From IMG/VR virus record IMGVR_UViG_3300010885_061060, positions 1-43,411 of that record: DNA of 43,411 bases. One strand, written 5' to 3'. Shown here one piece after another: positions 4,133 to 43,411 of the stretch (position 1 is its first letter; each line of letters starts with the position of its first letter). The notes under the pieces were generated by a model. That model saw only the letters and a program-made list of their open reading frames with translations. It did not search any database and had not been told where the DNA came from. Origin of the DNA: a virus. A program made the position numbers and the translations under genes.

Positions 4133-5025
4133 TCTTCGTAAGTGGTAGTAACTGGTCCGCTCATGGCGGCCATGCCAGCTTTGCCGGAGTTCTGTCGTGT
4201 CCATGATGGGTTCAGTCCGTTCATTTCCAGTATGTCATCACGAATGTTTTGATTTTTCTTTTCAATGTTCAGGATGCGAGTAAAACTATTAGTGATAGCG
4301 GCAGTATAATACGCAAAAGGGTTCTGCGATTTGGACTCGTCAAATTGCAAGCCAATTTGGCTGAGTTGTAGCAGGGCTTGTCCGCGCATTTCTTCATTGT
4401 AGGTGTATCCTCTCCAGTTTGATCGGGTGGCATAGCGTTCGCACAGTTTCATAAACATCATGGCCAGTTTGCGTGTCATGTTGCCATGATCCTTGCAGAA
4501 CTCGCCAGAGTCCAGGTCACCACGCCAGTGGCTTTTGCCTATCAACACAGGCGTTTTGTTTTCGTCTAATCTATAATGCCAGAACGGGGGAAAGTTAACT
4601 CTCATGTGTGTGGGATCCAGCACCACGTCCTCAACCAGGTCTGCTAATGGATCTTCTGTTACATCATCCAGGTCCAAGATGTCTTCAATTTTTTTCTTTT
4701 TGGCAGCAGTTTTGGGCACTTTCTTGGGAGCCATGGGTATGTGTTCCCAGGTCATGATGCGGAAAACCACTTCTGTATTGGGTATTTTTTTGGGATCAAG
4801 AACTTCACCGGTTTCACGTTTGTGACGGTCTGCACGATTGCGGCGTGCTTCGGCCACAGTTTTTTGATTGATTTTGCTTACACTGGGCAGGATCATGTCA
4901 AACTGATGATCAGTCACACGGTCCAGGAATGAGCAGTAGGTGTTTTTGCTGAGATGTATTTCTTTAAGAATATCTCTGTTGTTGAGATAGTTAACACGCG
5001 GCGCAGTCTTTGCGATTAGGGTCAT
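4129..5025 (-). CDS. gp55: gp55-like late-transcription sigma factor
   Basis: Redirects host RNA polymerase to TATAAATA-type late promoters, several of which precede the structural genes in this window. The protein has 298 residues, longer than T4 gp55 (185). The N-terminus (VNYLNNRDIL) and a C-terminal sigma region 2-like helical block (about 183-270, including NWRGYTY..EM, QFDESKS-NPFAYYT and IEKKNQNIRDDIL) are typical of marine phage gp55. Between them is a long middle segment with a Lys-rich stretch (about 101-112) and an acidic stretch (114-135). An SD-like GGAGAC lies 8 bases before the ATG. The gene ends in a 4-base overlap with the radical SAM gene and is first in the minus-strand unit. 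Confidence 0.93.
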   Translation of the reverse strand: MTLIAKTAPRVNYLNNRDILKEIHLSKNTYCSFLDRVTDHQFDMILPSVSKINQKTVAEARRNRADRHKRETGEVLDPKKIPNTEVVFRIMTWEHIPMAPKKVPKTAAKKKKIEDILDLDDVTEDPLADLVEDVVLDPTHMRVNFPPFWHYRLDENKTPVLIGKSHWRGDLDSGEFCKDHGNMTRKLAMMFMKLCERYATRSNWRGYTYNEEMRGQALLQLSQIGLQFDESKSQNPFAYYTAAITNSFTRILNIEKKNQNIRDDILEMNGLNPSWTRQNSGKAGMAAMSGPVTTTYEE

Positions 5026-26100: not shown

Positions 26101-29100
26101 ATTACCATACTGGGCACTGTACTGGGCGGAAGTGTGTTGTACAACAACTTGATCATAACAGTCACCGCTGTGGAATCTTATGCCAAAGCTGGCACAGTGT
26201 ACGTGTTCAACAGAAACGTACAACAATTCATTTATGGTACAGACACATCATCAGTTGACTTTACTGTGTTGGGAACACCAATATCACCAGTCAGTGTGAG
26301 TGTGAATGGAACATTTTTACTGAATGCTGTTGCCGCTGCACCCAACGCCACTAACACTTTCACAGTGAGTGGTTCTACAGTGACCATCAATGGTGATCTG
26401 CAGACTGGTGATATAATTGAAATTGAAACCAATCAATTCAGCCAAACTCAGATCATACAACAGAATACTGTAGAAGAGTTTGCCAACTTTGGTCAGGCAC
26501 TGGATCTGTGCAGTTACGATTGCAGTTTGTATGTGGGCGCTCCGCAGAGTAGCATACAAGTGATCAAAGGCGGCGTGGTTGAACGTACAGTAAATCAAAG
26601 CCGTGCCTATGGCATAATTACCAGCACAGTGGGCAACCCCACTCTGGACAATGGCGACACCATAAACATAGACAACATAGAAGTGGCAGTGCCCGGCGGT
26701 GTAAATCAAAATGTCACTGGACTGGCTGCGGCAATAAATGTAGCAGTACCAAATTGCAGTGCCACAGTTGATAATTCAGGACGATTGGTGTTGGCTGTAA
26801 AAAATTCTGCTGCTGCACCCACAGGCAACAAACTAAAGGTAGCACCAGGTGCAGTGGGCACAACATTTGCTGATCTTGGATTTGATGTTTATGCATTTAC
26901 GCAGACCATACTCAGCCCTAATCCACAAGAATTTGCATCATTTGGCGCCAGTATCAGTCTTGACGAATCTGCCATTGCGTTGATAGTAGGTGCACCTCAA
27001 GGCACGTTGTATCTAGTGGTGTTGTTTGATCTTGGTACAACAGTGTTTGATGACAATGTGACAGAATTTTTTGATCAAATATTACAAAGTGGCAGCGTGT
27101 ACACATACGACTTGCTGGTCAGTGATTCAATCACCTTGAGCAATCCCGACAAGTTTGTGTTTGGACAACAGATTCAAAACAGCAACGTGGCTTCTTATGA
27201 TCAATTTGGTTCAGCTGTGGACTATCGTTCAGGTCTGCTGTGGGCAGGTGCTCCAGGAAATGAACTGGGCGATAGCACACTGGGCGGCAATTACGGTCGC
27301 GTGTTCATCAGTGAAAATGCCAATGGGTTGCCTGCCTGGACTGTGTTGAGAGAACAGCAGCCAGTGGTAGATGTAAAATTGATAAACTCTGTGTATGCAT
27401 ATGATCGATTGACATCAGCCACAGCAGCTTATTTTGATTTCTTCAACCCATTGCAAGGTAAAATTTTGGGTGCCGCCAAACAGAATCTTGATTATATTGG
27501 GGCAGTGGATCCTGCAGGATACAATGTGGGACCTCGCAATATCACAGGCAGCAGTTGGCAAACAGCCAATGTGGGTGAGACCTGGTGGGATACCAGCACA
27601 GTGAGATTCATTGATCCCAACCAAGACGACATCTTGTACGCCAGTCGTCGTTGGGGGCAAACATTCCCAGGCAGTTCAGTTGACGTGTATCAGTGGGTGA
27701 AAAGTGCTGTGCCTCCAGCAGATTATGTTGGACCCGGTACAGCAAGAAACACATCAAACTACACTGTGAATACCACACTGACCAGAGCTGGTACTTTTAT
27801 ACCAGAGTACTACTTCTGGGTGCGTGGAATAACCACCACAGCTCCTGGTAAAACACTCCCAATCAGCACAGTGGCCAATTACATCACAGATCCTCGTGCC
27901 AGTGGCATAGCCTACATAGCACCACTCAATGCCAGCACATTTGCCATATACAATGCACTGGATATCATATCTGCCGAAGACACAATCATAAGCATTGAAT
28001 TTGATCGTGAATACACAGACAGTGCAGTACACGCAGAATACGAATTGATTGCACAGGATCAAGCAGATGGATTTCTCAGTGACAATCTTTATCGCAAGTT
28101 GTTGGATAGTTTTTGCGGAGTAGACATTTCTGGCAGTTTGGTCCCTGACATCAACCTCAGCGTAGCACAACGTTATGGCGTGCAATTCCGTCCGCGTCAG
28201 AGCATGTTTGTTGACAGATTCAACGCATTGGAAAATTATCTACAACGATGCAACACAGTTTGTGCCAGATATCCCATTGCAGAAAGCAGAGCATTGACCT
28301 TGTTGCTCAGTCAAGAACCACAACCCAGTGCTACCTCAGGACTGTGGGACAAGCGTGTGGCCAATTTAGAAGTACTGGGCTTTCAAAATATCAATGCTGT
28401 GACATTGGGCTACAGATACCTTGTGGACACTGACAGCAACAACCGTGGACTGTGGACCATTTACACTGTGCAGTTGATCACTCAAACATCATCTACTCGT
28501 CAACTGACCTTGACCAGAGTTCAGAATTTTGACACTAGACAATATTGGTCTTATATCAACTGGGTACGCCCAGGTTACAACACCAGTTCTCAAGTCATAG
28601 CCGAGGTTCCAAACTTTGCAGGACTTAACACCACAACTGCACCAGTCGGCAGCAGTGTCAGAGTCACAGCCAATGCTCAAGGTAAATTTGAAGTATACTT
28701 GCGCACCACAATTGGATGGGATCGTGTGATATTGCAAGATGGCACCATTGAATTTTCTGCACAGCTATATGATTATGCCTTGGGAAGATTTGGATTTGAC
28801 AACGAAGTATTTGACGCACAATATTTTGACCAAGAGCCAGTGATTGAAACACGCAAAGTGCTGCAGGCCATCAATCAAGAAATTTTCATCGATGAACTGC
28901 TGATTGAACGCAATAGAGCATTGACCCTGATGTTCAACTATGTTCTCAGCGAGTTTGCTGCTCCTGAATGGTTGATCAAAACCAGTTTGGTAGATGTTGA
29001 ACACAGAATTCGTTCGCTACTGCCATTCCAGAATTTCAGCAGAGACAATCAAGAATTTGTATTGGATTACATTCAAGAAGTCAAACCGTATCATGTGCAG

Positions 29101-32100
29101 ATCCGAACGTTTAGTTTGCTGTATGATGGTAGTGATCAATGGCCTGGGGATATCAGCGATTTTGATGTACCAGCATACTACAACACTGATCTTGATGTGC
29201 CACAATACACCAGTCCAATTTTGTTGCCTTATGAGGCCGGTACTGCATTTAATTCTGAACTGAACATTCTAAGCAACTTGCCCAGCAACAGCACTGTATG
29301 GGACACATGGCCTTACAGTTCATGGTACAACACTTATCTAATGACCATTGATACCATTGATGTTATCGAAACTGGATCAGGATACACAGAACCTCCCTTG
29401 GTCATAATCACTGCCAACTCAGGAGATCCTGCACCCACCACGCCAGCACAAGCAGTGGCTCTGTTGAACAGTTTGGGACAAGTGTATGCCATCAACGTAA
29501 CAAATGCAGGTGCTGGATATCGCAGTACTCCTACTGTGTCGTTTGACGGCGGTAACGGATCTGGAGCAGTGGCATATGCAAGGTTGATCAACGGTCTCAC
29601 TAGATCGTTCAAGACTGTGATTAGATATGACAGATATCAATACAACTCTAGTATCACTGACTGGAATGGTTCTTCATTGTACGTAAATGGAACACTGGTG
29701 CGATATGATGATCGAGTATGGTCAGCCAGCAGTGCTGACGGCAGCAGTGCTGTGACTGGTCCTAATTTTGATCTTGAAAACTGGACTTTGGTCAACGCCG
29801 GTAATTACACCTATCCAGGTGCCAGCCAGCCCACTGGACTGAGTGGTATAGATCGCACACGAGGATTGTATGTGGCCGCGGCCAACAGTCCGGGCCTAGA
29901 GTTGCCATTGCTGATTGACGGTCTTGACTATCCTGGTGTGCAAGTTTACGGCAACTATTTCTTGGGCAGTAGCAGTACTGATCCCACAATCAATTGTTCG
30001 GCTACTAGTGCGCAAGGCAACATAATCACCTGCGCAGGCACTTTGCCACTGCAAGTGGGATCAACAATAAAATTTTCAGGTGCGACATTTGGTGGTATTG
30101 TAACAGGAACTACATATTTTGTAACTTCTATTCCCAGTTCAAACACCTTCACAGTTACCACAATACAAGGCGGCATCAACACCCCATTGACCGACGCCAC
30201 TGGCAGCATGACTGCACAAACTTTACCACTGTTGGATGCTCAGTATGAAAGTGCTTTTTTAGATTCATACCTTGGCACACAACCCAGTGACATCATTGTA
30301 GATGGCGGCGAGTTTATAGGACCGTACGAAGGCCATGCGCCAGAAGAGCTGGTCAACGGCAGTGAATTTGACACCTTGGATCTGCGAGTGTACACCAGAC
30401 CAGGTGCAGACTGGCAGAATGATGGGCATGGTTTCCAAATTGTATCTGTTAGATACACTTATGATCCAGCTGAGACCAACTTTTACAGTTGGGCCAATGT
30501 GGTTGACTTTCCTGTACAAGTATTGGTCAGTAATTTGACCACTGGACAAGATCTCATTGAGAATATCCAATACTTTGTGGACTGGGCTGCTCAATACATT
30601 GTGATTACATCTTCGGTCACCCCCGGGGACATCATCAACATCAATGTGTATGAAGTCGGCGGCGGCAGCCAGCTGTATAGAAAAAATTATACAGGGGCTG
30701 AGTTAGATTTATTGGACAATAAAGTTATTGTGCCAGTGAGTCTTGCGCAGATTGCACAGGTGGCAGTGTTTGTAGATGGCACCATTATACAACAAGTCCC
30801 AGTGGTCACTGCTTATTCAGCCAGTGTGCCTTGGGCCATAACGTCTGAATTCCCTGCACTGTCTGTGATTTACAACAACAACGTGATAACTTGTACTAGC
30901 ACTGCTGGTGGTGGATTCAACGTGATAATTTGTACAGACACTACCAGTTTGACAGCAGGGCAACCCATTGTGTTCTCTGGCACTGTGTTTGGTAGCATTG
31001 TGGCTGGTGTTGAATACTATGTGCTGTCTGTAGCCAATGCCACACAGTTCTTTATCACTGCGGTGTCAGGATCTACTACACCAGTAACGTTGACCACTGC
31101 CAGTGGCTCCATGACAGGTCAACCAGCTGGTACTTACTATCGTGCCACACAGGCAGTGCCAGCTGGTATACAGTTGACCAACACTGCGTATTGGTTGCCG
31201 TTTGTGCCTTCTCAACGCAGTGAAGTCTTTATTCCTGCCACACTGGGACTTGCTGATTTGGTTTCAATATTGATACTGGGAGACGCTCTCAGCATACCAG
31301 TCACTGATGTTGTGAGTGAAAGCAATGCGGTGATATTGTTGGGAGACCTTGCAACACTGAGTGTGGGACAAACTGTGACGTTTTCAGGATATGGCCTGGG
31401 CGGTATCGAAACTGCAGTCAACTACCAGATATTCAGCGTGGTTTCGGATTCTATCAACGCCATCACACTCACACTGGATGGAGTCACCGAAGTTGACTTG
31501 ATCGATGACCAAGCAGCTTGGTCGGGCGAACTCACAGCCAAGTTCATACCAGTTGGTCTTGCCAGCTGGAGCACACCAGTGGTTGAGCAGTTTGAAGCAG
31601 TGGACAATGTGCTGGTCACCAACTCAGTCACGCTGAGTGTTCCAATAATTGGCACCAATCCTGCCAACATGGTGGTTGAAATAAATGGTTTCAGACAACA
31701 ACCTGCAGAAGGAATAGAATGGATTGGGGATGACAGTTCTGTAAGTTTTGGTTTGCCGCAACGTGGCAACTACTCACAGAGCATTATTAGTCCTCCCAGC
31801 GATGTGGTGGTGTATGTAGACAATGTACTGCAGGTACAAAGCGTTGGCGCTACCCTAGGAACCTACAGCGTCACAAATTATCCCGGCAGCAACACACCAG
31901 GACGACAAGTGGTGTTCAATGTACCACCACCAGCTGGCGCAAGAATTCTGATCACAGTCAGCACCATAGCTGACTACAATGTCATAGGAAACACAATACA
32001 ATTTAACAATTTGTTGAATTTTCAAGACCGTATCTCAGTGGTGACCTGGAATGATACTTTGCAACAAAATGCATTGACTCTTGTGTTTGTTGGACCTATT

Positions 32101-33129
32101 ACCACTGGTCTTACTGTGGAAGAACCATATGACAGCACCACTTATGATGTGGGTGTAATTGATTTTCAACCTGGTTCGTTTGATTACAGTGTAGGTACCA
32201 GCATACCCGTAAACAATTTTGATTTGTTAAGAGAAGGCATATCTGCCAACCGTTTGTGGGTCACACTGGATGGAACAAGATTGTTTGAAGGTTCAGACTA
32301 CACAATATCAGGCCAGTTTTTGATACTGGCCACAGGTGCTATTGGTGCCAATCAAGTCATGGTTATCACAGAATTTACCAACAGCGTGGTGCCAGATGCT
32401 GTGGCATTTGGTATTTTCCAAGACATGCGCGGAGTGCAAGTCACTTATCGTATCACTGCTGCAACTACCACCACGCTGACTCAACCACTGTCGGCCACTG
32501 CTGATGTGATACATGTACAGGACGCAACCAAACTGACCTTGCCTAATCTCTCAACTGGTGTGTTTGGCATCATCACCATCAATGGTGAACGTATTTCATA
32601 TCGCAATAGAATTCTTGCAAACAACACCTTGACTGGTCTCAGACGTGGCACAGCCGGTACTGCTGCTGCCGATCATCCTGTGACATCTGAAGTGTATGAT
32701 CTTGGATTGGGCAACTTGCTGGACGAACGTTATCAGAATTACACTGTGTCTGACTCAGTTATAGCCGATGGTAGTAGTTCTTTGTACTATGCTCCCAGCA
32801 TTGACATCAGTGATTTTGGGGACAGCAGTTCAGCGTATGTTGAAAGTATTGAAGTTTATGTGGGCGGCGCCCGACAGTACAACTACAGTGAAACTCAAAG
32901 TACCAGTCAATATCGTTACATTGTGACTGATTTTGCACCGCTGGCCATTGAATTTATTGTGGACAATGATCCTGAAACTCCATTGCTGCCACCGGCTGCA
33001 GGCAGTGAAGTTACCATACTACAACGCCGTGCTCTTGGATGGTACCTGCCAGGCAACGGTAGCCCCAGTGACGGTGTAGCACTGCAAGAAACTGATACAG
33101 AAGCCGCAAGGTTTTTGTGTGACCGATAA
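17152..33129 (+). CDS. Giant (5325-residue) baseplate/adhesin structural protein
   Basis: Uninterrupted frame of 5325 residues, predicted mass well above 500 kDa. It sits just after gp6, where T4 has gp7, but is five times longer than T4 gp7 (1032); gp7 homology is not shown. Order seen: conserved N-terminus (SVDFLPAIFQTPVNKQFL); cupredoxin-like domain 174-297; a repeat near 594-665; strand-rich modules; a Trp-rich block near 1470-1570 (PGSWRGIYRYFYDTE, KPTWWDIVYG); CBM5/12-like modules at 1979, 2417 and 4171; seven FG-GAP-like blades 2385-3390; a helical block with FVLDYIQEVKPYH near 3965; further repeat copies 4277-4803; and a C-terminal module with ITINGERISYRN..LTGLRRGTAG (about 5140-5175). 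No signal peptide or membrane helix, as expected for a virion protein. Likely role: baseplate periphery plus receptor binding (inference). Confidence 0.85.
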   Translation: MARQRSVDFLPAIFQTPVNKQFLAATLDTMVQEPKFKKTQGFIGRTVGPGVNPKDSYVVEPDKIRQEYQLEPGVVILEPGTKKVKDAITYPGINDAIEFEGGDSGRPDLLYQSDYYTWDPFINYDAFINFSQYYWLPSGPDVVSVAALGVPSEYNFTVTREDGVYSFSGQPGTNPTLDLVRGGSYTFQVAQNTKETENFRVTNIGTTSYQIDFQSNPTLVLTRGNTYVFNLNLNGDYPFWIKTQLSLGTGDAYNSGVSRNGSAFGLVTFVVPQDAPDILYYVSQNQTNLRGTINIIDGTPGTGPGFFIQTNPGVDGTVAATPNISARDVLGVSNNGEDLGTVTFEVPLKNAQQFYYTLPDVGPIDLMTELRFDQINNKPLQQFIIDNNGIDGITYLTSRTLVFINPTLDADAGGWLETTLFDPLVRLDSLNGQPGSFDTEEFDQATPIPFNNRYQRWQINIVNRQGVDYISLANIGNINVNEKFTVAYGNQYSNTSWYKGGSGYFEQIPLLTATLDTLYYQDGTDPEMFGRIRLLDQTQIDTIFIDQILGQANYTAPNGVEFTNGLKVKFTGQVEPASYGSGNTTITYTATISGGNLITCNSTAGLYVGQPIVFTGTTLGGIVAGQTYYIDILTANGLQFAIALQPGGARVQLTTASSAGFSAVAISDKQYYVSGVGTAIELLPVTDFVCPETYIVDANDSTIATEPGEIDYITINRASKDLNAWTRSNRWFHLEVIQATAQYNNTVAQLDNQYRAKRPIVEFRPGIRLFNMGTESKAPVDIVDFEETDALSNIEGSTGYTVDGVTFIDGTRVIFAADTDPEVRNKIYQVQLISPDTSPPMGAPYAGPQPIIHLVPASDAEVLIDQSVVCLEGTTSKGLSFWYNGSAWTLAQQKTSVQQPPLFDVYNLDGVSFANTNTYPSTTFTGSKLFSYAIGDSGILDPILQFPLQYLNINNIGDIVFDNNLFTDTFVYVIDNVSEVLAISTGTPREYTSRASFQRLLGWKSAVATSQVYQQFKFFFPQQTLQLDVSVATSLGNNTAQASHVTLPALKVYVGSEFIQPTDYTFTTTANSTTIQLSRTYAPTDIIEVLALSDQTSSVAFYQVPGNLQSNPLNGNSPSFTLGTIRTHYESICENLVDLLGPVAGSNNSRDLGDISRFGLVILQQSSPLTLAGYFLRSEKFNIFASLQYNMQEYLKFKGQLLNAVTQQTIQYQTVASVLDTALADITLGRISSQPFYWSDMLPSGSLYSTLTYQITNTSGNTFDIGSVYNYTTANYQGMNVYLNNVILTRDHDYVVATDGPRITVLATLAVNDVLTINEYSATYGNFVPNTPTKLGLYPAYQPEQVLQTTSTGTQSVIIGHDGSVTRAFGDIRDAVLLEFETRIYNNIKLDGNPVPINLVDVIPGQFRTTGYSVAEVDNILDKDFLSYVAWNKLDYRTQDYRATNEFTWNYSGSKNKLNDESLPGSWRGIYRYFYDTEQPEITPWQMLGFSIKPTWWDIVYGAGPYTQDNLVLWDDLEAGYVADPVAPYYLPAYARSGLTTVIPTSDEGTLLSPFDAVVGNYNDQTFRKSWALGDGGPVEASWYNSSAYPFAAMRLLALTQPAKFFALFADRDEYRYQAEFGQYLYNFRYRLDANGVQVYGNGTSKASYINWIVDYNRNSGLDTTAELTSDLASLDVRLCYRMASFSDKQYIKIYTEKSSPNSDNTTFLIPDESYDLLLYKNQPFAKASYSSVVIQQVPGGYAVYGYSTSQPYFSILTSVNAGQLQTFTSGGTSVSVPTSYTNQVAQIPYGYIFSNQTAVSDFLLSYGQYLDRQGLVFDDTTNGYMLSWGQMVNEFLYWSEQGWDNNALINLNPLAFRLSVTRPQAIVDSIVAQTSENILLDQNRNELPTRNLLITRLDNTFTIEPVTDQTLSYIDLKYTAYEHMIVLNNASSFGDLIYSPITGARQSRLNLIAATSTEWNGSVDAQGFILNQNNVTQWDSARTYAKGEIVLYKGTYWSAAQIVQPSILFNANDWFQSDYTQIELGLLPNLANKADQLQNSYNINTANLEQDNDLLSYGLIGFRPRQYLTSLNLDDVSQVNIYKQYLGTKGTILSAELLAQANLGKEIADYNIYENWAVQRAVYGANANRSFFQLRLNRALLNSNPSLVQVIAAGQPSQADQPILFADIWRQSYKLTSPNILPVTTTLPTDIGFPTAGYVNFQDADITVFDITDIASLAANIDQIQAGSTVWVAKTNEYDWDVFRAEAVPGTVQHVCDNLDGTSLVLFSQQHGLVQGQQLIIKQFDAEVNGVYTVIAVPNLTKITIAFSFTGDRTIVDGTGLAFTLQTQRVAQASDIINLPYANTIEPGAKVWVDNNGNDRWVVLQKQEVFSSITELAPTVTDVGEQYSSSVAQAGRGFAAIVGSPRYRFPAGATEWSEAEQYLPGDIVFVLDPYETQFYQCILGTPLPPGPDPSNTTYWASYSLATLPRKGGIYVYVKTDAVDYTVVSPLSPLDAVITLNGTGVLSLGSSVAFGNQDWAVAGAPNSLGSVGQANNGYSCVIYRDPELAAPGSIPYGAWQLLTTPDSVSVDQGQFGSSVTMSQDERWLYIGAPGVNKVYAYGRVDWQKQFVRIFADGATTEYFIGDVIQIDAATQLQIGVGGVTQILNTDYTVNNDFNTVTFFTAPADDEQIEIQRINRKILDFDVYYNVPASGGTGTGATFVVTRLRNTVTVSVFAGGSGYANGNPSAGTLTILAAAFDGTANITLQVIVSGGTVTGVFGTPVYAPPSLTNTFSLNEFFFTVDVIDSFSVLVDDVLQRPNIDYTFNALTSDLTFLPTTAGNFGVGIKYTIITVGTTDFTAIGAISNTPGITFTATGAGTGTGTAQNPATGTEILVRAEGYFEYCDTISYPGSTAGDNFGSAVSTSSDGRQVLIAAEDCQVSGTIATTSSSGLAAVGTNTYLGLAQNSTSGSGQGARFTVTKQNSTYTVTVTSPGQDYTVGDTITILGTVLGGSVLYNNLIITVTAVESYAKAGTVYVFNRNVQQFIYGTDTSSVDFTVLGTPISPVSVSVNGTFLLNAVAAAPNATNTFTVSGSTVTINGDLQTGDIIEIETNQFSQTQIIQQNTVEEFANFGQALDLCSYDCSLYVGAPQSSIQVIKGGVVERTVNQSRAYGIITSTVGNPTLDNGDTINIDNIEVAVPGGVNQNVTGLAAAINVAVPNCSATVDNSGRLVLAVKNSAAAPTGNKLKVAPGAVGTTFADLGFDVYAFTQTILSPNPQEFASFGASISLDESAIALIVGAPQGTLYLVVLFDLGTTVFDDNVTEFFDQILQSGSVYTYDLLVSDSITLSNPDKFVFGQQIQNSNVASYDQFGSAVDYRSGLLWAGAPGNELGDSTLGGNYGRVFISENANGLPAWTVLREQQPVVDVKLINSVYAYDRLTSATAAYFDFFNPLQGKILGAAKQNLDYIGAVDPAGYNVGPRNITGSSWQTANVGETWWDTSTVRFIDPNQDDILYASRRWGQTFPGSSVDVYQWVKSAVPPADYVGPGTARNTSNYTVNTTLTRAGTFIPEYYFWVRGITTTAPGKTLPISTVANYITDPRASGIAYIAPLNASTFAIYNALDIISAEDTIISIEFDREYTDSAVHAEYELIAQDQADGFLSDNLYRKLLDSFCGVDISGSLVPDINLSVAQRYGVQFRPRQSMFVDRFNALENYLQRCNTVCARYPIAESRALTLLLSQEPQPSATSGLWDKRVANLEVLGFQNINAVTLGYRYLVDTDSNNRGLWTIYTVQLITQTSSTRQLTLTRVQNFDTRQYWSYINWVRPGYNTSSQVIAEVPNFAGLNTTTAPVGSSVRVTANAQGKFEVYLRTTIGWDRVILQDGTIEFSAQLYDYALGRFGFDNEVFDAQYFDQEPVIETRKVLQAINQEIFIDELLIERNRALTLMFNYVLSEFAAPEWLIKTSLVDVEHRIRSLLPFQNFSRDNQEFVLDYIQEVKPYHVQIRTFSLLYDGSDQWPGDISDFDVPAYYNTDLDVPQYTSPILLPYEAGTAFNSELNILSNLPSNSTVWDTWPYSSWYNTYLMTIDTIDVIETGSGYTEPPLVIITANSGDPAPTTPAQAVALLNSLGQVYAINVTNAGAGYRSTPTVSFDGGNGSGAVAYARLINGLTRSFKTVIRYDRYQYNSSITDWNGSSLYVNGTLVRYDDRVWSASSADGSSAVTGPNFDLENWTLVNAGNYTYPGASQPTGLSGIDRTRGLYVAAANSPGLELPLLIDGLDYPGVQVYGNYFLGSSSTDPTINCSATSAQGNIITCAGTLPLQVGSTIKFSGATFGGIVTGTTYFVTSIPSSNTFTVTTIQGGINTPLTDATGSMTAQTLPLLDAQYESAFLDSYLGTQPSDIIVDGGEFIGPYEGHAPEELVNGSEFDTLDLRVYTRPGADWQNDGHGFQIVSVRYTYDPAETNFYSWANVVDFPVQVLVSNLTTGQDLIENIQYFVDWAAQYIVITSSVTPGDIININVYEVGGGSQLYRKNYTGAELDLLDNKVIVPVSLAQIAQVAVFVDGTIIQQVPVVTAYSASVPWAITSEFPALSVIYNNNVITCTSTAGGGFNVIICTDTTSLTAGQPIVFSGTVFGSIVAGVEYYVLSVANATQFFITAVSGSTTPVTLTTASGSMTGQPAGTYYRATQAVPAGIQLTNTAYWLPFVPSQRSEVFIPATLGLADLVSILILGDALSIPVTDVVSESNAVILLGDLATLSVGQTVTFSGYGLGGIETAVNYQIFSVVSDSINAITLTLDGVTEVDLIDDQAAWSGELTAKFIPVGLASWSTPVVEQFEAVDNVLVTNSVTLSVPIIGTNPANMVVEINGFRQQPAEGIEWIGDDSSVSFGLPQRGNYSQSIISPPSDVVVYVDNVLQVQSVGATLGTYSVTNYPGSNTPGRQVVFNVPPPAGARILITVSTIADYNVIGNTIQFNNLLNFQDRISVVTWNDTLQQNALTLVFVGPITTGLTVEEPYDSTTYDVGVIDFQPGSFDYSVGTSIPVNNFDLLREGISANRLWVTLDGTRLFEGSDYTISGQFLILATGAIGANQVMVITEFTNSVVPDAVAFGIFQDMRGVQVTYRITAATTTTLTQPLSATADVIHVQDATKLTLPNLSTGVFGIITINGERISYRNRILANNTLTGLRRGTAGTAAADHPVTSEVYDLGLGNLLDERYQNYTVSDSVIADGSSSLYYAPSIDISDFGDSSSAYVESIEVYVGGARQYNYSETQSTSQYRYIVTDFAPLAIEFIVDNDPETPLLPPAAGSEVTILQRRALGWYLPGNGSPSDGVALQETDTEAARFLCDR
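17671..18042 (+). other. Cupredoxin-like domain without copper ligands (in giant protein)
   Basis: Residues 174-297. The pattern NP-x-L-x-L-x-RG-x-x-Y-x-F occurs twice, followed by YPFWIKT, GTGDAYNSGV, TFVVPQDAP and LYYV, then RGTINIID. This is the plastocyanin-like arrangement found in marine virion proteins. The expected ligand positions are replaced (Tyr237 in place of the usual His before PFW; SQNQTNL where a C..H..M loop would be), so copper binding is unlikely. Confidence 0.6.
18931..19146 (+). repeat. GGIV-type repeat, copy A of four (giant protein)
   Basis: Residues 594-665: pattern N-x-ITC-x-ST-x-x-L-x-VGQPIVFTG-TLGGIVAG-x-x-YYI, ending in a Thr/Ala/Ser-rich strand. Three further copies lie near the C-terminus (29980, 30880, 31321). 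Confidence 0.75.
23080..23202 (+). other. CBM5/12 (chitin-binding type 3)-like module 1 (giant protein)
   Basis: Residues 1977-2017. W1979-DSARTYAKGEIVLYKGTYWSA followed by N-A-N-D-W2015: the W...Y..GD.V.Y.G..Y.A.....P...W layout of small carbohydrate-binding modules. Family call by eye. Confidence 0.55.
24400..24540 (+). other. CBM5/12-like module 2 (giant protein)
   Basis: Residues 2417-2463. W2417-SEAEQYLPGDIVF, then Y-x-C and PDPSNTTYW2460. Inserted between blades 1 and 2 of the FG-GAP-like region. Confidence 0.5.
25228..25356 (+). repeat. GSGY-type repeat, copy 1 (giant protein)
   Basis: G-x-GTGATF-x-V followed by a strand and GGSGYANG. A similar unit occurs at 25990-26130 (GQGARFTV, then PGQDYTVGD) and a double one at 29353-29586 (TGSGYTEPPLV; NAGAGYRSTPTVSFDGGNGSGA). 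This kind of repeat is common in marine phage virion proteins. Confidence 0.6.
25624..25749 (+). repeat. TTDFTAIGA-type module (giant protein)
   Basis: GVGIKYTIITVGTTDFTAIGA then PGITFTATGAGTGTGTA, a short beta module that I know as a recurrent unit in many marine phage structural proteins. It is inserted between FG-GAP-like blades 3 and 4. Confidence 0.65.
25990..26130 (+). repeat. GSGY-type repeat, copy 2 (giant protein)
   Basis: GSGQGARFTVTKQ..., then PGQDYTVGDTITI. Second copy of the unit at 25228, lying in the insertion between blades 4 and 5. Confidence 0.55.
29353..29586 (+). repeat. GSGY-type repeat, double copy 3 (giant protein)
   Basis: Two GxGY units (ETGSGYTEPPLVIIT and TNAGAGYRSTPTVSF) followed by GNGSGAVAYA, downstream of the helical EVKPYH block. 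Confidence 0.6.
29662..29796 (+). other. CBM5/12-like module 3 (giant protein)
   Basis: Residues 4171-4215. W4171-NGSSLYVNGTLVRYDDRVWSAS, then FDLENW4211. Third module of the same layout, near the C-terminal third. Confidence 0.5.
29980..30228 (+). repeat. GGIV-type repeat, copy B (giant protein)
   Basis: Residues 4277-4359: GNIITCAGTLPLQVGSTIKFSGATFGGIVTGTTYFV split over two strands, then a GSMTAQ ending. Copy of the units at 18931, 30880 and 31321. Confidence 0.75.
30880..31122 (+). repeat. GGIV-type repeat, copy C (giant protein)
   Basis: Residues 4577-4657: ITCTSTAGG, LTAGQPIVFSGTVFGSIVAG and YYVLSV, ending ASGSMTGQ. The closest match is to copy B (shared GSMT ending). Confidence 0.75.
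31321..31560 (+). repeat. GGIV-type repeat, copy D, diverged (giant protein)
   Basis: Residues 4724-4803: SNAVILLGDLATLSVGQTVTFSG then GLGGIETAVNYQI. The Cys seen in copies A-C is absent, so this is the most diverged copy. Confidence 0.6.
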
Positions 33130-36728: not shown

Positions 36729-36756
36729 AAAGGGGCTGTTGCCCCTTTACTTTTCT
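36729..36756 (+). terminator. Intrinsic terminator closing the late block
   Basis: Perfect 8-base-pair stem AAAGGGGC / GCCCCTTT with a TGTT loop (36729-36748), then a T-rich tail (ACTTTTCT). It starts 4 bases after the stop of the preceding gene. Confidence 0.85.
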
Positions 36757-36774
36757 CCGCTGTTCCTATATAAT
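36746..36774 (+). promoter_or_regulatory. Sigma70-type promoter of the glycosyltransferase/radical SAM operon
   Basis: -35 TTTACT (36746-36751, 4 of 6), 17-base spacer, perfect -10 TATAAT (36769-36774). The -35 overlaps the terminator's downstream arm. The next ATG (36780) is 5 bases after the -10, so the mRNA may be leaderless. Implies host-polymerase (early or middle) expression of the following genes. Confidence 0.7.
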
Positions 36775-36779
36775 ACACT

Positions 36780-37088
36780 ATGGACACTGAAGCCTTGGTT
36801 GCTCACGCACGAGCAAGATTTGATCACGCAGCCGCCCGACGGGTGCTAAAAGAAAAATACGAAGCACGTATGGTGTTTGCTTATGGTGGCGGAATGTGGC
36901 GTGCCGGCCCAGAATTGTTGACTGTGTTGTTGGCCTGCGCACAAGACAAGGATGTGGTGATATTGGACTTGTATGAAACACCAGTGCAAATTGTTGTAAC
37001 AGACTTGTTTGCTCGAGCACACGAACGCTGGCAAGAGCAAATGAACGCATGGAAAGTGGAATGGGACGAACTAAACAAAAAACGATAA
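36780..37088 (+). CDS. Hypothetical protein, 102 residues, first gene of the modification operon
   Basis: Not recognised. Arg/Ala-rich N-terminal helix (ALVAHARARFDHAAARRVLKEKY), then YGGGMWRAGPELLTVLLAC, a strand pair (DVVILDLYETPVQIV) and a C-terminal charged helix. Looks like a small soluble alpha/beta protein. No ribosome site precedes the ATG, and the promoter lies immediately upstream. The frame overlaps the next gene by about 28 bases. An internal ATG at 36870 would give a 72-residue product but also lacks a ribosome site. Confidence 0.65.
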   Translation: MDTEALVAHARARFDHAAARRVLKEKYEARMVFAYGGGMWRAGPELLTVLLACAQDKDVVILDLYETPVQIVVTDLFARAHERWQEQMNAWKVEWDELNKKR

Positions 37089-37879
37089 CTCAAGGTGTGC
37101 TAATCTTTGCCTTTAACAATGAGGCAACGGATTACATTGCCATGGCAGCATGGAATGCAAAGAACATTCGCAGGCACCTAAACTTGCCTGTGGCTGTGGT
37201 CACAGACAATCCTGCGGCTGCCGCCGAGCACAAATTTGAACACATCGTTGTCACAGCACCAGACACTGGTGGTTTTCGACATTTTGCTGATTACGGAGCC
37301 ACTGTGACTTGGCACAATGCCGGACGCATCACGGCCTACGAACTGTCACCATTTGATCAAACCTTGGTACTGGATGCTGACTATGTGATAGCCAGTGATA
37401 GGTTATTGCAAGTACTAGAACTACCACAGCAGTTTGCAGCCTTCAAGGATGGATTTGATCCCAGCAGTATGACCAATCTTGATACATTTGGTGCGTATAA
37501 TATGCCCATGTGGTGGGCCACTGTGATGATGTTCCGTCGTGGCAATATCAGCCAATACATATTTGATTCAATGCAAATGATACGCAACAACTGGCAGCAC
37601 TATCGAGACTTGTATGGCATTCACCAAAGCAACTATCGCAATGACTATGCCCTGAGCATTGCACTGGGACTGGTAGCAGGTGCGGAACAATCAGTGCATG
37701 AGATATTTTTCCCCATGCTCAATGTCATGCCAGAACACGGATTGACTCGTGTGGCGCAAGATCATTATGAAATCGAATACACCAACACCGAAGGCCGACT
37801 CAAAACTCTGAGTTGGGCCGGATTAGACTTTCATGCCATGTGTAAACGACACCTGGAGGCCATAGTTGCAGCCCATTGA
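37061..37879 (+). CDS. Putative glycosyltransferase (DxD type), copy 1
   Basis: Start chosen at 37061, where GGAAAG stands a few bases upstream; ATG 37049 is in frame and 4 codons longer. 272 residues. Core: GVLIFAFNNEATDYIAMA near the N-terminus, LPVAVVTDNP, then SPFDQTLVLDADYVIAS with Asp105-Ala-Asp107 as likely nucleotide-sugar/metal site, and MWWATVMMFRR downstream. The layout resembles GT-A enzymes of the GT8 kind. The next gene has the same order of motifs, suggesting an old duplication. Donor and acceptor are unknown. Confidence 0.7.
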   Translation: MGRTKQKTITQGVLIFAFNNEATDYIAMAAWNAKNIRRHLNLPVAVVTDNPAAAAEHKFEHIVVTAPDTGGFRHFADYGATVTWHNAGRITAYELSPFDQTLVLDADYVIASDRLLQVLELPQQFAAFKDGFDPSSMTNLDTFGAYNMPMWWATVMMFRRGNISQYIFDSMQMIRNNWQHYRDLYGIHQSNYRNDYALSIALGLVAGAEQSVHEIFFPMLNVMPEHGLTRVAQDHYEIEYTNTEGRLKTLSWAGLDFHAMCKRHLEAIVAAH

Positions 37880-38633
37880 CGAACAAGGTTATGTGATTGT
37901 TGCTGTGAACAGCGACACTGTGGATTATCTTGACTGCGCTAAAATGTTGGCCACGACCATACGCTACTGGGATCCGTCGGCACGGATATGCCTGGTCACA
38001 GATAGTTCCTACGCTCATCCCATATACGACCATCATAGACAACTTGTGCCTGAAGCCAACCCCTATGCCAATGATGCACAGTTATTCAAACTATCCCCAT
38101 TTCGTGAAACCATCAAACTAGAAGCAGACATGTTTGTTGTTTCACCTATCTCACACTGGTGGACACAGTTTAGAAACAGAGATGTTGTGATTAGCACAGG
38201 GTGTAGAGATTGGCAGGATAATGTTAGCACAGCAAGGCATTATCGTCGTGTGTTTGATGTGAACCATTTGCCAGACGTGTACAACGCTGTGACATACTGG
38301 CGCCGTAGTGAAACTGCTCGGGAGTTCTTTGGCTGGGTGCGAGACATATTTGCCAACTGGACCGAGTTTCGAAAACTCATAAAATTTCCTGATGAAACAC
38401 CATCAACTGATCTTGTGTATGCTATGGCAGCAGAGATCATGGGCAGAGATCGGGTCACAATGCCATTCAGCACATACCCAAAGATAGTGCATATGAAACG
38501 ACACATAGCAGGAACACAAACTGAACACTGGTTGGATGAGCTAGTGTGGGAATATCAAGACTTACGACTGCGCATACAAACTGTGGCACAAACAGGTGCG
38601 TTTCATTACCATGTTAAAGATTGGCAAGCATGA
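37866..38633 (+). CDS. Putative glycosyltransferase-like protein, copy 2 (TTG start)
   Basis: 255 residues. The TTG start at 37866 is supported by a perfect GGAGG (37855-37859) 6 bases upstream. It overlaps the previous gene by 14 bases. Motif order matches the preceding protein: [50 protein letters not shown]. The acidic site is E-A-D rather than D-x-D, which may alter or reduce activity. A W-rich C-terminal half ([12 protein letters not shown]) follows. Probably a GT-A-fold enzyme acting in the same pathway. Confidence 0.65.
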
Positions 38634-38965
38634 CACCTGAAGAGTTTTGGTCTATACTGCACAACATGCCAGAACCCAGTCCGGTGTGTTATCGTTTGTA
38701 TCACGACGACCAAGGGCACCCGTTATTCTATAGCATGGAAGACGAGCCTGGTACATACATTGAGATTGACCAGGTGACTTTTGCTCGCAGTGCCTCCAAC
38801 GTGCGTGTGCGAGATGGTCAACTGGTAGAAATAACATGGGCAACCACAACAAAATTGGTCCCTGGCAACTGTGGCACACCTTGTCATCCCAACAATGTTG
38901 CTGTCGTTGTTGCCGAGAACCAACCTCATACCCGCTGGAGTAAAAAAACATATGAATCAAATTGA
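38630..38965 (+). CDS. Conserved phage protein of unknown function, 111 residues
   Basis: Starts in an ATGA overlap with the preceding stop, which excludes a 3-codon longer reading. Core: [29 protein letters not shown] followed by [17 protein letters not shown], probably a small all-beta domain. I believe similar proteins occur near radical SAM/glycosyltransferase genes of marine T4-like phages, but no function is known to me. The C-terminal 30 residues contain two Cys ([10 protein letters not shown]). Confidence 0.65.
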
Positions 38966-39878
38966 CATTGCAGACCTAGACTGTGTATACCTAAGTTATG
39001 ATGAACCTGAAAAAGAAGAGTTTTGGATACGGATCAAAAACATGGTGCCTTGGGCTACCAGAGTAGACGGTATCAAAGGGTCAGACGCTGCTCATAAGGC
39101 AGCTGCTTCTGTCAGTACCACTGAACGTTTCATATTGATTGACGGTGATAACATTCCTGACGCTGCGTTCTTTAATCAGACATTAAAATTTGAAACACCA
39201 GACTGGGAACAGGCAGTGTTTCGTTGGCGTGCTAGAAATCACATCAATGGCCTGATGTATGGCAACGGCGGGTTAAGTTCATGGACACGTGAGTTTGTGT
39301 TCAACATGCGCACACACGAAGCCACGGACGGACGTACAGAAACAGAAGTAGAGTTTTGTTTTGATCCCATGTACTGGCCCATGTACGACTGTTACTCAAC
39401 CACATACCCTAATGGGAGTGCATTTCAAGCCTGGCGTGCCGGCTTTCGTGAAGGTGTAAAAATGTGCTTGAACAAGGGCGCTCGACCCACGGTGGAAGAA
39501 TTCCAACAACAGGTACACAAACGTAATCTAGATCATTTGACCATATGGCACAACATTGGAGCGGACGTCAACAACGGGCAGTGGGCCATGGCCGGAGCAA
39601 GGCAGGGCACATACATGACCATGCTCACAAACTGGGATCATAAGCAAGTACAAGACTTTGATGCGTTGGCTGAAATCTGGGAAACAGTAAAAGATGCTGA
39701 ACCAAGATTGTTAGGCGGACGTGTGGCAGATGAGTTGCATAATCAGTTGGACTTGCCTATGGCCATCTTTGAAGGTGAACAAAGCCGATTTTTCAAACAA
39801 CATTATCAATCAAACTGGCACAATCGTGGCATCATGGTCAGAGAGATTGATGTTATTAGACAGCAAGAAGGCTGGTAA
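38952..39878 (+). CDS. Putative glycosyltransferase (DGD motif)
   Basis: Start at ATG 38952 (GGAG 11 bases upstream, 14-base overlap with the previous gene); a 27-codon longer reading is unlikely. 308 residues. VYLSYDEPE at the N-terminus, then [19 protein letters not shown] and [11 protein letters not shown] with Asp64-Gly-Asp66. The pattern fits phage GT-A-like glycosyltransferases, whose DxD binds the metal and nucleotide sugar. Later segments include [15 protein letters not shown] and [11 protein letters not shown]. Its stop overlaps the next start by one base. Confidence 0.72.
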
Positions 39879-40453
39879 TGGCCAAACTTTATTTAGATGG
39901 ATGCAGCTTTACGTTTGGACTGGGATTAGAAAGTCATGATACATTGGCTGGTCGCTGGGTGTCTGAATATGAAGTAATAAACAAAACACGTCCAGGCAAA
40001 TCTAATTTGGCCATTGCACTTGATGCTTTTGAAAATATTCAGAATTGTGACATAGTAGTTATTGGTTGGACATATTCTTCCAGGAGCTATCTAAAATATC
40101 AAGAGTACGACATTGATTTGCTGCCATCTAGAACAGTTGTAGAATTGCCATTCGAAAGAGATACCAAAACAATCTCAGACATTTATACAGATTTGCATAG
40201 AAATTTTTACGCACTGCATGACACAGCATTTGCCAAGCACCATAGTGATTTTTTAGTTTCCAGCATAAAATACATGTGTGAAAAATATCAGAAAAAATCA
40301 GTATTTTTTTCTTGGGAACGTCGAAAAACAGATTTTGACATATACTATCCTACTATATCTCCAAAAATGCGGTTACCCGATGGACACTTAAATGCCGACG
40401 GAACTTTACACCTATATAATAATTTACAACAACTAATATATGAACAAAGGTGA
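39878..40453 (+). CDS. SGNH/GDSL-like hydrolase
   Basis: 191 residues. Block I is DGCSFTFG with Ser10 as likely nucleophile. Gly40 and Asn43 (RPGKSN) could be the oxyanion residues. A C-terminal DGHLN (Asp168, His170) completes the triad. SGNH enzymes often remove or move acyl groups on sugars, so this may trim or modify glycans made by neighbouring enzymes (inference). AAGAAGG lies 6 bases before the ATG. The second half of the gene is AT-rich (40261-40320 has 17 G+C), suggesting recent acquisition. Confidence 0.7.
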   Translation: MAKLYLDGCSFTFGLGLESHDTLAGRWVSEYEVINKTRPGKSNLAIALDAFENIQNCDIVVIGWTYSSRSYLKYQEYDIDLLPSRTVVELPFERDTKTISDIYTDLHRNFYALHDTAFAKHHSDFLVSSIKYMCEKYQKKSVFFSWERRKTDFDIYYPTISPKMRLPDGHLNADGTLHLYNNLQQLIYEQR

Positions 40454-41837
40454 CGAGTCAGTAGACAACAAGAGTAAATTTCTTGGCTCTGCTGAGCAAA
40501 TGAAACAACAACTAGGACCTGCACTTTGTCTAGCAAAGTGGAAGCAGGTCAGCCTACACTTGACCACAGGCATGAACAACTCATGCTACCATCCTCCGCT
40601 ACACCCAATCGACCCTGCAGAGATTGCTGTAGATGTTTCGGCTTTGCACAACACTGCATATAAAAAACAACAACGCCAAAAGATGTTGGCAGGTAAAAAG
40701 CCCGGTGAATGTCAGTACTGCTGGAACATGGAAGATCAAGGCAAACTAAGCGATAGACATTATCGGTCCGGCGAACCTTGGGCCGCTGTAGATTTTGAAT
40801 CAATAAAGAATAGCACAGGAGCGGAAAATGTCATTCCCAGTTATGTTGAAGTTAATTTTAATCACGCTTGCAATCTGCGGTGTAGTTATTGCAGCCCTCA
40901 GTTTAGTAGTTCATGGGCAGATGAAGTCGCTAGACACGGAGCATATCCTACCTTGGTGCCTCATAATGCTCCTGAGCATTTCACTGGCAGTCGCCGTGCT
41001 ATTCCCGTTCGAGACACCAACCCTTATGTTGAGGCCTTCTGGAAGTGGTGGCCAGACTTGTACCCTCACCTAGAGCATTTCCGCATGACTGGTGGCGAGC
41101 CGTTGATGGATCGGAACACTTATCGTGTGTTTGACTATGTGTTGGAGAACCCCAGTCCCAAGTTGCACTTAAATGTCACAAGCAACTTTTCAGTAGATGA
41201 AAAGAGTTGGCAGAAATATTTAGGCTACGTAAAACAAATTTGCGATGGACGTATTGAGCATTTCATGCAGTATGTGAGCCTGGACGGCTGGGACGATCAA
41301 GCCGAATACATGCGCAACGGATTAGATTTTAATCTGCTGTGGGACAGAGTAAATCAGTTTTTGACAGAAGTACCCAACTATTCGAGCCTTACGTTTATTA
41401 TCACCATGAACAATTTAAGTGTGACCAGTTTGGACAAACTGTTTGCTGGCATCTTGGGATTGCGCAAAGTGTACAGCAAAGACTATCAACGTGTGTGGTT
41501 CGACACACCTGTGTTGCGTGACCCTGCCTGGCAAAGCCTGCAAATATTACCCGAAAGTTATGCTGAAAAACTGGAATGGCTGTGGGCCTGGATGATACGT
41601 CAGATTGAAACAGAAGAAGCACCGTTCAAAGGATTCAAAGACTATGAACTGCATAGACTGGACCGTGACATTGCCTGGATGAGATCGGCACAGTTGACAG
41701 ATCACAGTCGTGCAAAAGCAGACTTCTATCGTTTCTTCAGCGAACATGATCGTCGTCGTGGCACAGACTTCTTGAAGACATTTCCAGAGATGAGGTCATG
41801 GTGGGAGGAGTGCGCATATCATGCTAGGCAATCGTAA
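40440..41837 (+). CDS. Radical SAM protein with N-terminal twitch-like module (copy 2)
   Basis: 465 residues. The N-terminal module holds Cys30 (CLAKW), Cys49 (SCYHPP), Cys91 and Cys94 (CQYCW), likely ligands of an auxiliary iron-sulfur cluster. The radical SAM core follows with CNLRCSYC (Cys144, 148, 151), FSSSWADE, and GGEP at 218-221. Strings LHNTAYKK and KMLAGKKP recur almost unchanged in the protein starting at 42914. No clear ribosome site precedes the ATG; translation may depend on coupling to the overlapping hydrolase gene. Substrate unknown; co-operonic glycosyltransferases suggest sugar, lipid-carrier or peptide modification. Confidence 0.9.
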   Translation: MNKGDESVDNKSKFLGSAEQMKQQLGPALCLAKWKQVSLHLTTGMNNSCYHPPLHPIDPAEIAVDVSALHNTAYKKQQRQKMLAGKKPGECQYCWNMEDQGKLSDRHYRSGEPWAAVDFESIKNSTGAENVIPSYVEVNFNHACNLRCSYCSPQFSSSWADEVARHGAYPTLVPHNAPEHFTGSRRAIPVRDTNPYVEAFWKWWPDLYPHLEHFRMTGGEPLMDRNTYRVFDYVLENPSPKLHLNVTSNFSVDEKSWQKYLGYVKQICDGRIEHFMQYVSLDGWDDQAEYMRNGLDFNLLWDRVNQFLTEVPNYSSLTFIITMNNLSVTSLDKLFAGILGLRKVYSKDYQRVWFDTPVLRDPAWQSLQILPESYAEKLEWLWAWMIRQIETEEAPFKGFKDYELHRLDRDIAWMRSAQLTDHSRAKADFYRFFSEHDRRRGTDFLKTFPEMRSWWEECAYHARQS

Positions 41838-42921
41838 AATCATTGTGGATGAGTGGGCCGAAGTTTGGGATCTACTGAAACCCTATGCTGATGACAGTTT
41901 CTGGCAGTGGCCTGAACAACTAGATCCTGGGGCTGTATACATTGTAGGCAGAGTTGTGCTCAAAGAAAACTGGGTAGCCATAACCGAATGGGCTACAAAA
42001 TATCCTGGGCACATTGTATTTTCCAATCCTGCTGAAGGTAGTGAAACCATATTGTTGCAATTACGCAGATTAGTAATAAAAGAATACGTGCTGGATGGTC
42101 GAATTGGACTGTTGACATCAGGTGACATGGAACCTGGTTGGCGTTATTGTAAAACAGACTGCTACTTCTCCAACATTGTGGAGTACTTGGAAAACTTACG
42201 TGCGCACGAGTCTTACCCCGAAGTGTATCACAAACCGAACAAACCCTATGACTTCCTATTTTTAAACGGACGACTGCGCCCGCATCGCAAGTATCTAATA
42301 GATGCCATGCGTGATCGCCAGTTGTTGGATCGAGCACTGTGGACCAATCTCAATGACCGTGTGGAAATGGCCTGGAGCAGTCGATTGCAAACTGGCAATG
42401 CTGAACCTGTGCGACTTTTGCCACGACAATACGAAATTGATCGCGCATTGCCCAACATGGATAATGTGCCTGAGGGATTCATAAAGCACCACTTGTTTGG
42501 CAACACCTGGGGTGATGCTGAAATCAATCCTGCACCCTATATTGACACATACTTCTCAGTGGTAACAGAAACCATATTTGATTATCCATACACATTCCGC
42601 ACAGAGAAGATTTGGAAACCCATGATCATGGGTCATCCGTTTGTGGCAGCAGCCAACCGCGGCTACTATAAGGATTTGCACTCAGCAGGATTTCAAACAT
42701 TCGGGCACTTGATTGATGAAACATTTGATCAGATCGATGATCCCACTGATCGTGCCAATAGAATAGTTGACGTTGTGGCAGATATATGTTATAATGGTGC
42801 TGCCAGTTTCTTGGAGTCAGCCAGATCAGTTTGTAAATACAACTATCAACAACTTCGCGAACACAATCGTCGTGAACGTGCAGAACTCCCAGAACGTTTG
42901 GCCCAATACATAAATGAATGA
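41821..42921 (+). CDS. Putative glycosyltransferase, fucosyltransferase/exostosin-like C-terminus
   Basis: 366 residues. The C-terminal block at about 247-275, VVTETIFDYPYTFRTEKIWKPMIMGHPFV split into TETIF and FRTEKIWKP..MGHPF, resembles the nucleotide-sugar site (TEK..P..G) of GT10 fucosyltransferases and related GT-B enzymes. Mid-protein FLFLNGRLRPHRKYLIDAM is typical of this phage group. It has no DxD site of the sort seen in the upstream enzymes. GGGAGGAG stands 10 bases before the ATG. It overlaps radical SAM genes on both sides (17 and 8 bases), so all three are probably translated together. Confidence 0.72.
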   Translation: MLGNRKIIVDEWAEVWDLLKPYADDSFWQWPEQLDPGAVYIVGRVVLKENWVAITEWATKYPGHIVFSNPAEGSETILLQLRRLVIKEYVLDGRIGLLTSGDMEPGWRYCKTDCYFSNIVEYLENLRAHESYPEVYHKPNKPYDFLFLNGRLRPHRKYLIDAMRDRQLLDRALWTNLNDRVEMAWSSRLQTGNAEPVRLLPRQYEIDRALPNMDNVPEGFIKHHLFGNTWGDAEINPAPYIDTYFSVVTETIFDYPYTFRTEKIWKPMIMGHPFVAAANRGYYKDLHSAGFQTFGHLIDETFDQIDDPTDRANRIVDVVADICYNGAASFLESARSVCKYNYQQLREHNRRERAELPERLAQYINE

Positions 42922-43411
42922 TATAGAATTTAAACAACAAGTGTTGGACCCTGTGTCCTCAAGTTTTTGTGCAGCGAAGTGGTACAATGCTACCATTTGG
43001 TTAGGAAGTGGGCAGACCACAAGTTGCCATCACCCGCCAGCCCATTTGATTGACATTGATAAAGTCAATAACAACTCTAGGCTGCTGCACAATACTGATC
43101 AAAAGAAAGAAGACCGGCGTAAAATGCTGGCAGGCGAACGTCCAGCAGGCTGTGAATACTGCTGGAAGATTGAGGACATGCACACTGACGCTGTGAGTGA
43201 CCGTGTGTACAAATCAAAAATTTATCCCATAAAGGCTCTACATGAAGCAGTCAACACCCCCGTCCAAGATGATGTCAATCTTAGAACACTGGAAATCAGT
43301 TTCGATCGCACTTGTCAATTTGCTTGTTCTTATTGCAATCCTGCTTTTAGTTCCACTTGGGTCAATGATATACGCCGGCATGGACCCTACAACGGGCTGG
43401 TTAGCGATGGC
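42914..43411 (+). CDS. Radical SAM protein with N-terminal twitch-like module (copy 3), 3' part cut by window
   Basis: Open to the right edge (166 codons seen). It starts with an 8-base overlap (ATGAATGA) with the previous gene. Cys19, Cys38, Cys80 and Cys83 have exactly the spacing of copy 2 (C-x18-C-x41-C-x2-C). CxAKW, SCHHPPAH, LHNTDQKK and KMLAGERP repeat its motifs. The core motif is CQFACSYC (Cys134, 138, 141) followed by NPAFSSTW. The GGEP region lies beyond the window. A paralogue of copy 2, separated from it by one glycosyltransferase gene. Confidence 0.9.
   Translation, partial: MNDIEFKQQVLDPVSSSFCAAKWYNATIWLGSGQTTSCHHPPAHLIDIDKVNNNSRLLHNTDQKKEDRRKMLAGERPAGCEYCWKIEDMHTDAVSDRVYKSKIYPIKALHEAVNTPVQDDVNLRTLEISFDRTCQFACSYCNPAFSSTWVNDIRRHGPYNGLVSDG

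Follow-up and report, generated by a model that had tools for sequence, protein, structure and literature searches.

A nine-gene cassette from a large T4-like water phage pairs N-twitch radical S-adenosylmethionine (SAM) enzymes with candidate glycosyltransferases (GTs). Related phages keep it in a fixed order behind its own σ70-type promoter, and the five types of radical SAM enzyme that they encode are shared with Bdellovibrionota. The DNA analysed is the virus record IMGVR_UViG_3300010885_061060 over its whole length of 43.4 kb (43,411 nucleotides; 'the window'), whose T4-like character is seen in genes for a gp55-type late sigma factor, gp46/gp47-like proteins and the baseplate wedge and hub. 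The cassette, g1–g9, comprises nine + strand open reading frames (ORFs) between 36780 and 43411. Direct support exists for the linkage of these genes, for the promoter type (through sequence conservation), for the five radical SAM types common to phages and Bdellovibrionota, and for the GT-B fold of g8 (through a structure model). We favour the reading, which we regard as evenly poised, that the operon is of bacterial (Bdellovibrionota-type) origin, is expressed early and tailors glycan, with a product most likely placed on host surface glycan.

Gene order and promoter in related phages

All eight junctions between neighbouring cassette genes overlap (by 40, 14, 13, 14, 1, 14, 17 and 8 bp, in order), as the initial annotation had described. 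A scan of IMG/VR with g7 gave at least 597 stretches encoding confirmed g7 relatives, from which 80 loci were kept for comparison; with the window, the locus set numbers 81. Three marker families are present in 79 of these loci and the order g2–g3–g5–g7 is kept in 77 of the 79, so that the genes are not scattered or unlinked in related phages. The recurrent arrangement is fibre gene (fib600), f326, g1, g2, g3, g4, g5, a variable slot, g7, g8 (in some), g9 and three further radical SAM genes. Protein distances among g1–g5 are correlated at 0.78–0.89, and those of g1–g5 with the structural gene p201 at 0.68–0.77.

The contig end falls inside g9. The operon is not complete within the window and continues in the relatives. 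Among the 60 loci that reach far enough to the right, at least five radical SAM genes are found in 53, the c11 gene in 47 and a carbamoyltransferase gene (c12) in 39. Downstream of the five radical SAM genes, relatives carry c11, the carbamoyltransferase and an FkbM methyltransferase. A second, convergent block follows; it encodes an NDP-sugar epimerase and a DegT aminotransferase and includes a large ORF that has a g5-like part. Two such ORFs with a g5-like transferase part encode 865 residues (L122:6518-9112) and 1784 residues (L123:6212-11563). Between g5 and g7 the slot accommodates from none to five genes; besides g6, these can be epimerases, hexapeptide acyltransferases, a DegT aminotransferase, an AMP-binding ligase and extra radical SAM genes. 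Taken together, the slot and downstream genes of the phages include four Epimerase and two Hexapep members, with DegT, PfkB, carbamoyltransferase and FkbM methyltransferase genes. GTs and sugar-nucleotide enzymes are thus seen in one unit in the relatives, not inside the window.

Against 50,697 phage records, g5 and g8 had no homologue at the limits used, g7 had two distant homologues in Vibrio phages (24.5% identity) and g3 matched only hypothetical proteins of cyanophages.

The tail-fibre unit closes with an intrinsic terminator stem (AAGGGGC-TGTT-GCCCCTT region, 36729–36748, + strand; RNAfold −14.2 kcal/mol) that is conserved in relatives, and its 3' end overlaps the −35 element of a σ70-type promoter, TTTACT-17-TATAAT (36746–36774, + strand), whose −10 element stops 5 nt short of the g1 ATG. 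The host-type promoter proposed initially is borne out by comparison: a TATAAT-like −10 element with at most one mismatch lies 5–10 nt before the g1 ATG in 56 of 61 distinct upstream regions, and in 52 of these 56 the spacer to the −35 element, mostly TTTACT, is exactly 17 bp. Given the usual distance from a −10 element to the transcription start, the position of this one predicts that the g1 mRNA is leaderless, starting at the ATG. The fibre gene differs, in that the T4 late motif TATAAATA lies within 75 nt of it in 36 of 52 distinct regions and at g1 in none of 54; the sole TATAAATA in the window, at 33896, precedes fib600. A second exact CTATATAATA is found at 40412–40421, 18 nt 5' of g7 (40440), and may be an internal promoter.

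Radical SAM types and their bacterial counterparts

The assignment of g7 and g9 to the twitch-type radical SAM enzymes, made at first from the letters of the sequence, was confirmed with NF033640 ('twitch domain-containing radical SAM', N_Twi_rSAM; curated cut-off 170 bits). g7 (40440–41837, + strand) scores 319.7 bits, well above the cut-off, and is of type T1 by its hidden Markov model (HMM) and in trees. g9 (42914–43411, + strand), cut by the contig end, scores 128.7 bits over the 144 residues of its N-terminal part; it aligns with relatives of type T2, and full-length copies in large relatives score above the cut-off. In g7 the twitch cysteines C30, C49, C91 and C94 and the motif C144-x3-C148-x2-C151 are invariant among 25 sequences, with a comparable cysteine pattern in all five types. 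Eight large relatives (123–347 kb) have from 7 to 21 NF033640 matches apiece. The window itself has a third N-twitch gene (2993–4204, − strand; 215 bits), which sits between the gp55 and gp47/gp46 genes and shares 76 nt with the late sigma gene gp55.

The phage radical SAM genes form five orthologous types, T1–T5, separated by wide margins by type HMMs, and many bacterial genes are assigned to the same types by the phage HMMs, again by wide margins. Scanning the genomes of bacteria and archaea yielded 40 loci, the majority titled Bdellovibrionota. Four others (L082, L084, L086 and L092) are contigs in marine metagenome-assembled genomes (MAGs) of Betaproteobacteria, Rickettsiales, Pelagibacter and Verrucomicrobia that carry fibre and f326 homologues with the same cassette; these are probably phage contigs binned into bacterial MAGs, and were therefore excluded as host evidence. 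No homologues of g1–g4 or g8 were seen by HMM in the bacterial loci scanned.

All five types occur in L085 (Bacteriovoracaceae UBA6144), in the order T2-T5-T4-T3-T4-x-T1-T2 between obg and lgt, and this flanking identifies the array as chromosomal. Shorter arrays are T2-T4-T5-T2 in L114 and T2-T3/T1-T2 in L118. About 1 kb upstream of the L114 array the same bacterial contig has a phage-type integrase gene (L114:7984-9078), a possible route of mobility. In L085 (9461–9889) and L083 (415–762) T1 is preceded by a gene for a small protein whose N terminus resembles a signal peptide; the protein has no Pfam match and could be a substrate or partner. A stretch of ~36 kb on a Bdellovibrionia chromosome (L128 and L129) has about a dozen radical SAM copies and an amidinotransferase-like gene.

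In an IQ-TREE phylogeny of 61 proteins each phage type forms one clade (SH-aLRT 92–100) beside its own bacterial type; five changes between phage and bacterial labels are needed in this tree, and six in a FastTree of 122 rows. The types therefore arose before the phage and bacterial sets diverged. The phage clades of T1 and T2 are nested in bacterial diversity, which suggests that the radical SAM genes of the cassette were transferred from bacteria to phage.

The abundance of these enzymes was compared in phylum samples, each of which includes its pre-selected centre genome, with NF033640 at E ≤ 1e-45. N-twitch radical SAM genes were found in 24 of 97 genomes of the L106 sample (Bdellovibrionota by title), in 3 of 200 of the L084 sample and in 1 of 145 of the L092 sample; some sampled genomes have more than 20 NF033640 matches at E ≤ 0.001.

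Several chromosomal loci link these enzymes independently to GTs. In L106 the neighbours of the T1 gene are two GT4 genes, a carbamoyltransferase, a DegT aminotransferase and a SPASM radical SAM gene; in L097 and L099 (Bacteriovorax-type) a GT4 gene lies immediately 3' of T1; and on another Bdellovibrionota chromosome g5, a second g5-like gene (g5') and an N-twitch radical SAM gene are arranged as an operon. These linkages support one glycan pathway. The claim of the initial annotation that the cassette genes serve a single pathway is accordingly well supported: the order is kept, g1–g5 diverge in a correlated way, the five radical SAM types are retained as a set in phages and Bdellovibrionota, and g5 and g5' are joined to a radical SAM gene on a chromosome.

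Transferase candidates and other cassette genes

Structure models were made for g5 and g8, with the concern that the transferase candidates might lack GT folds; g8 proved clearly GT-B and g5 modestly GT-A. The AlphaFold2 model of g8 (41821–42921, + strand; motif FRTEKIWKPMIMGHPF) is strong, with a predicted local distance difference test score (pLDDT) of 93.5, and its top structural matches are GT-B enzymes. The best is the α-1,3-fucosyltransferase 2nzx of GT10 (Z 12.4, root-mean-square deviation (rmsd) 4.1, 267 residues aligned), and the runners-up, at most one Z unit below it, include the phage HY126 glycosyltransferase (12.2) and the T4 β-glucosyltransferase (11.9). In Pfam, NCBIfam and PHROGs, g8 matched no GT family at E ≤ 1; we therefore class it as GT-B and not as GT10.

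The start of g5 (38952–39878, + strand; 308 residues) was corrected to the ATG at 38952 from the GTG at 38871. Its DGD motif (residues 64–66), from which a glycosyltransferase had been proposed, follows the strand at 59–64 and is indeed invariant; mean column identity is 78% and the gene is present in 79 of the 80 relatives. Structural matches to the g5 model (pLDDT 80.3) are nearly all GT-A enzymes or nucleotidyltransferases. Support for the fold is modest, since the best match reaches Z 7.4 (rmsd 4.9, 216 residues aligned), and g5 is probably a GT-A glycosyltransferase.

The paralogues g2 (37049–37879, + strand) and g3 (37866–38633, + strand; TTG start with GGAGG upstream; phrog_1903, 1.5e-11) align in hhalign with probability 98.8 and E 6e-17. 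They carry DAD and ExD motifs, with D109 and D111 invariant in g2 and E86 and D88 in g3. Their initial description as GT8-like did not hold up. Glyco_transf_8 (PF01501) gave no match at E ≤ 1 for the window proteins or for members of the g2 family; three of four large relatives were likewise without a match, and that of the fourth lies outside the cassette. With neither Pfam nor PDB sequences giving a GT8 match, we describe g2 and g3 as having GT-A-like motifs only. None of the g2, g3, g7 and g8 profiles retrieved a credible match from PDB sequences.

No Pfam or NCBIfam family was found for g1 (36780–37088, + strand), a conserved protein of 102 residues with an invariant WQEQM, or for g4 (38621–38965, + strand), a conserved protein of 114 residues (111 if the ATG at 38630 is used). 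g6 (39878–40453, + strand) occupies the variable slot as optional cargo and is found in 11 of the 81 loci; for the SGNH hydrolase proposed, it shows SGNH-like blocks by eye only (DGCS...GWT...DGHLN) and has no Pfam match. Elsewhere in the window, a single + strand ORF, flanked by the baseplate wedge gene on one side and the fibre genes on the other (17152–33129), encodes 5325 residues, unusually many for a phage structural protein.

Candidate pathways and their relation to known systems

In the glycan-tailoring reading, host σ70 polymerase would transcribe the cassette early, with the fibre gene served by its late-type promoter. The g2, g3, g5 and g8 transferases would assemble or lengthen a sugar chain, and the N-twitch enzymes may alter an intermediate, either a sugar or its carrier, by successive radical reactions (oxidation, epimerisation or deoxygenation in kind), with a separate step presumably falling to each enzyme type. 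Further groups might be attached by the products of the carbamoyltransferase, methyltransferase, epimerase, aminotransferase and acyl/acetyl genes that relatives carry. The product would most likely be put on host surface glycan, for example blocking competing phages, its target and purpose being the least certain step.

Several observations weigh against this reading. The arrays in L085, L083 and L114 have no recognised adjacent GT, and the radical SAM set may therefore do without GTs or act on a non-glycan substrate. The window itself is without a sugar-nucleotide enzyme, such enzymes being found only in the relatives. The best Z of g5 is within the range of common arrangements, g2 and g3 are called transferases, and g6 an SGNH protein, from motifs, and a σ70 promoter is also compatible with activity late in infection. 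The substrate, product and target of the cassette enzymes, and with them the chemistry of the pathway, are inferred.

Twitch radical SAM enzymes act on peptides and aminocyclitols, and it is conceivable, if unlikely, that the five types modify a peptide or an aminocyclitol-like metabolite (an antibiotic or signal), with the GTs as tailoring enzymes. The carbamoyltransferase, DegT and amidinotransferase-like c26 genes close to the array would suit such a pathway, and a secondary-metabolite cluster with carbamoyltransferases has been proposed in cyanophages (PMC7824862). However, the cassette has no precursor-like small ORF, g1 and g4 being conserved over their full length, and no resistance or export gene was recognised among the annotated genes. 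The window offered no candidate precursor of a ribosomally synthesized and post-translationally modified peptide.

That the enzymes glycosylate and radically modify the tail-fibre proteins encoded nearby, or other virion proteins, we judge distinctly unlikely. The cassette always lies directly 3' of fib600 and f326, but the fibre unit is closed by a terminator, the two have promoters of different kinds, and bacterial chromosomes have the same radical SAM set with no fibre gene alongside. Nor is there special co-evolution of fibre and cassette: cassette protein distances track those of the fibre and f326 genes (r 0.56–0.77) no better than those of the structural gene p201 (r 0.62–0.77). None of the three jobs suggested at the outset is proven; nevertheless, the sugar enzymes around the array and the σ70 promoter favour the surface glycan of the host, or a sugar carrier, over virion decoration. 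That promoter, in place of the late type used by the fibre gene, suggests early expression and a host-directed product.

Decoration of phage DNA by the GTs and radical SAM enzymes is very improbable: g8 aligns with T4 BGT (Z 11.9) and AGT (Z 10.9) and relatives carry carbamoyltransferase and DegT genes, but the GT-B fold is common to many GTs that do not act on DNA, and the ThyA-type (dCMP/dUMP hydroxymethylase) family was found in none of the eight large relatives with a working control (positive in 9 of 14 genomes), while TET/JBP dioxygenases were likewise found in none of the eight in a search whose controls also gave no match.

Returning to the glycan-tailoring operon, parts of it have precedents. 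T4-like pelagimyophages have a host-recognition cluster with GT/radical SAM cassettes, for which O-chain modification was proposed (PMC7029224); that cluster was called hypervariable and non-syntenic, and freshwater SAR11 myophages were reported without radical SAM genes. The present phages are also T4-like but differ in the fixed g1–g5 order, the five radical SAM types, the conserved promoter with its predicted leaderless mRNA and the Bdellovibrionota counterpart. The T4-like genome TARA_ERS488813_N000010 resembles them in having many radical SAM genes, 12 in all, which were read as Fe-S metabolism; the section consulted describes neither a GT operon nor orthologue types (PMC5332604). Clusters for modification of lipopolysaccharide or capsule in jumbo cyanophages share GTs, epimerases, PfkB kinases and carbamoyltransferases with the present loci, and the main text on them mentions no radical SAM enzyme (PMC7824862). 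T4-like genomes with multiple radical SAM genes, GT/radical SAM cassettes and jumbo-phage capsule clusters were thus already known. A further likeness is to the chromosomal clusters of Bdellovibrionota (L085, L106 and L135). These have the same five types; some have carbamoyltransferase, DegT and GT4 genes as neighbours, and one has a g5–radical SAM operon. Their gene order differs, and HMM scanning of the loci showed no homologues of g1–g4 or g8. In our literature search, whose coverage excluded most subscription journals, no paper turned up that describes the five-type array or its counterpart in Bdellovibrionota.

Earlier notices of phages rich in radical SAM genes came with no tested account of the enzymes' function. 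A defined, conserved set of five types and transferases, with a chromosomal counterpart, makes the chemistry testable with few expressed proteins. If the product is indeed a host surface glycan, radical chemistry would be used in competition between phages. More tentatively, and as a proposal about which we are somewhat more sceptical than convinced, the five N-twitch types and the g5-type transferase may constitute an undescribed radical-based pathway to a glycan or glycoconjugate of predatory Bdellovibrionota, wholly taken over by T4-like phages, perhaps because Bdellovibrionota are their hosts or because the two have prey cells in common. Through the link to Bdellovibrionota, these very common uncultured phages also gain their first hypothesis about a host.

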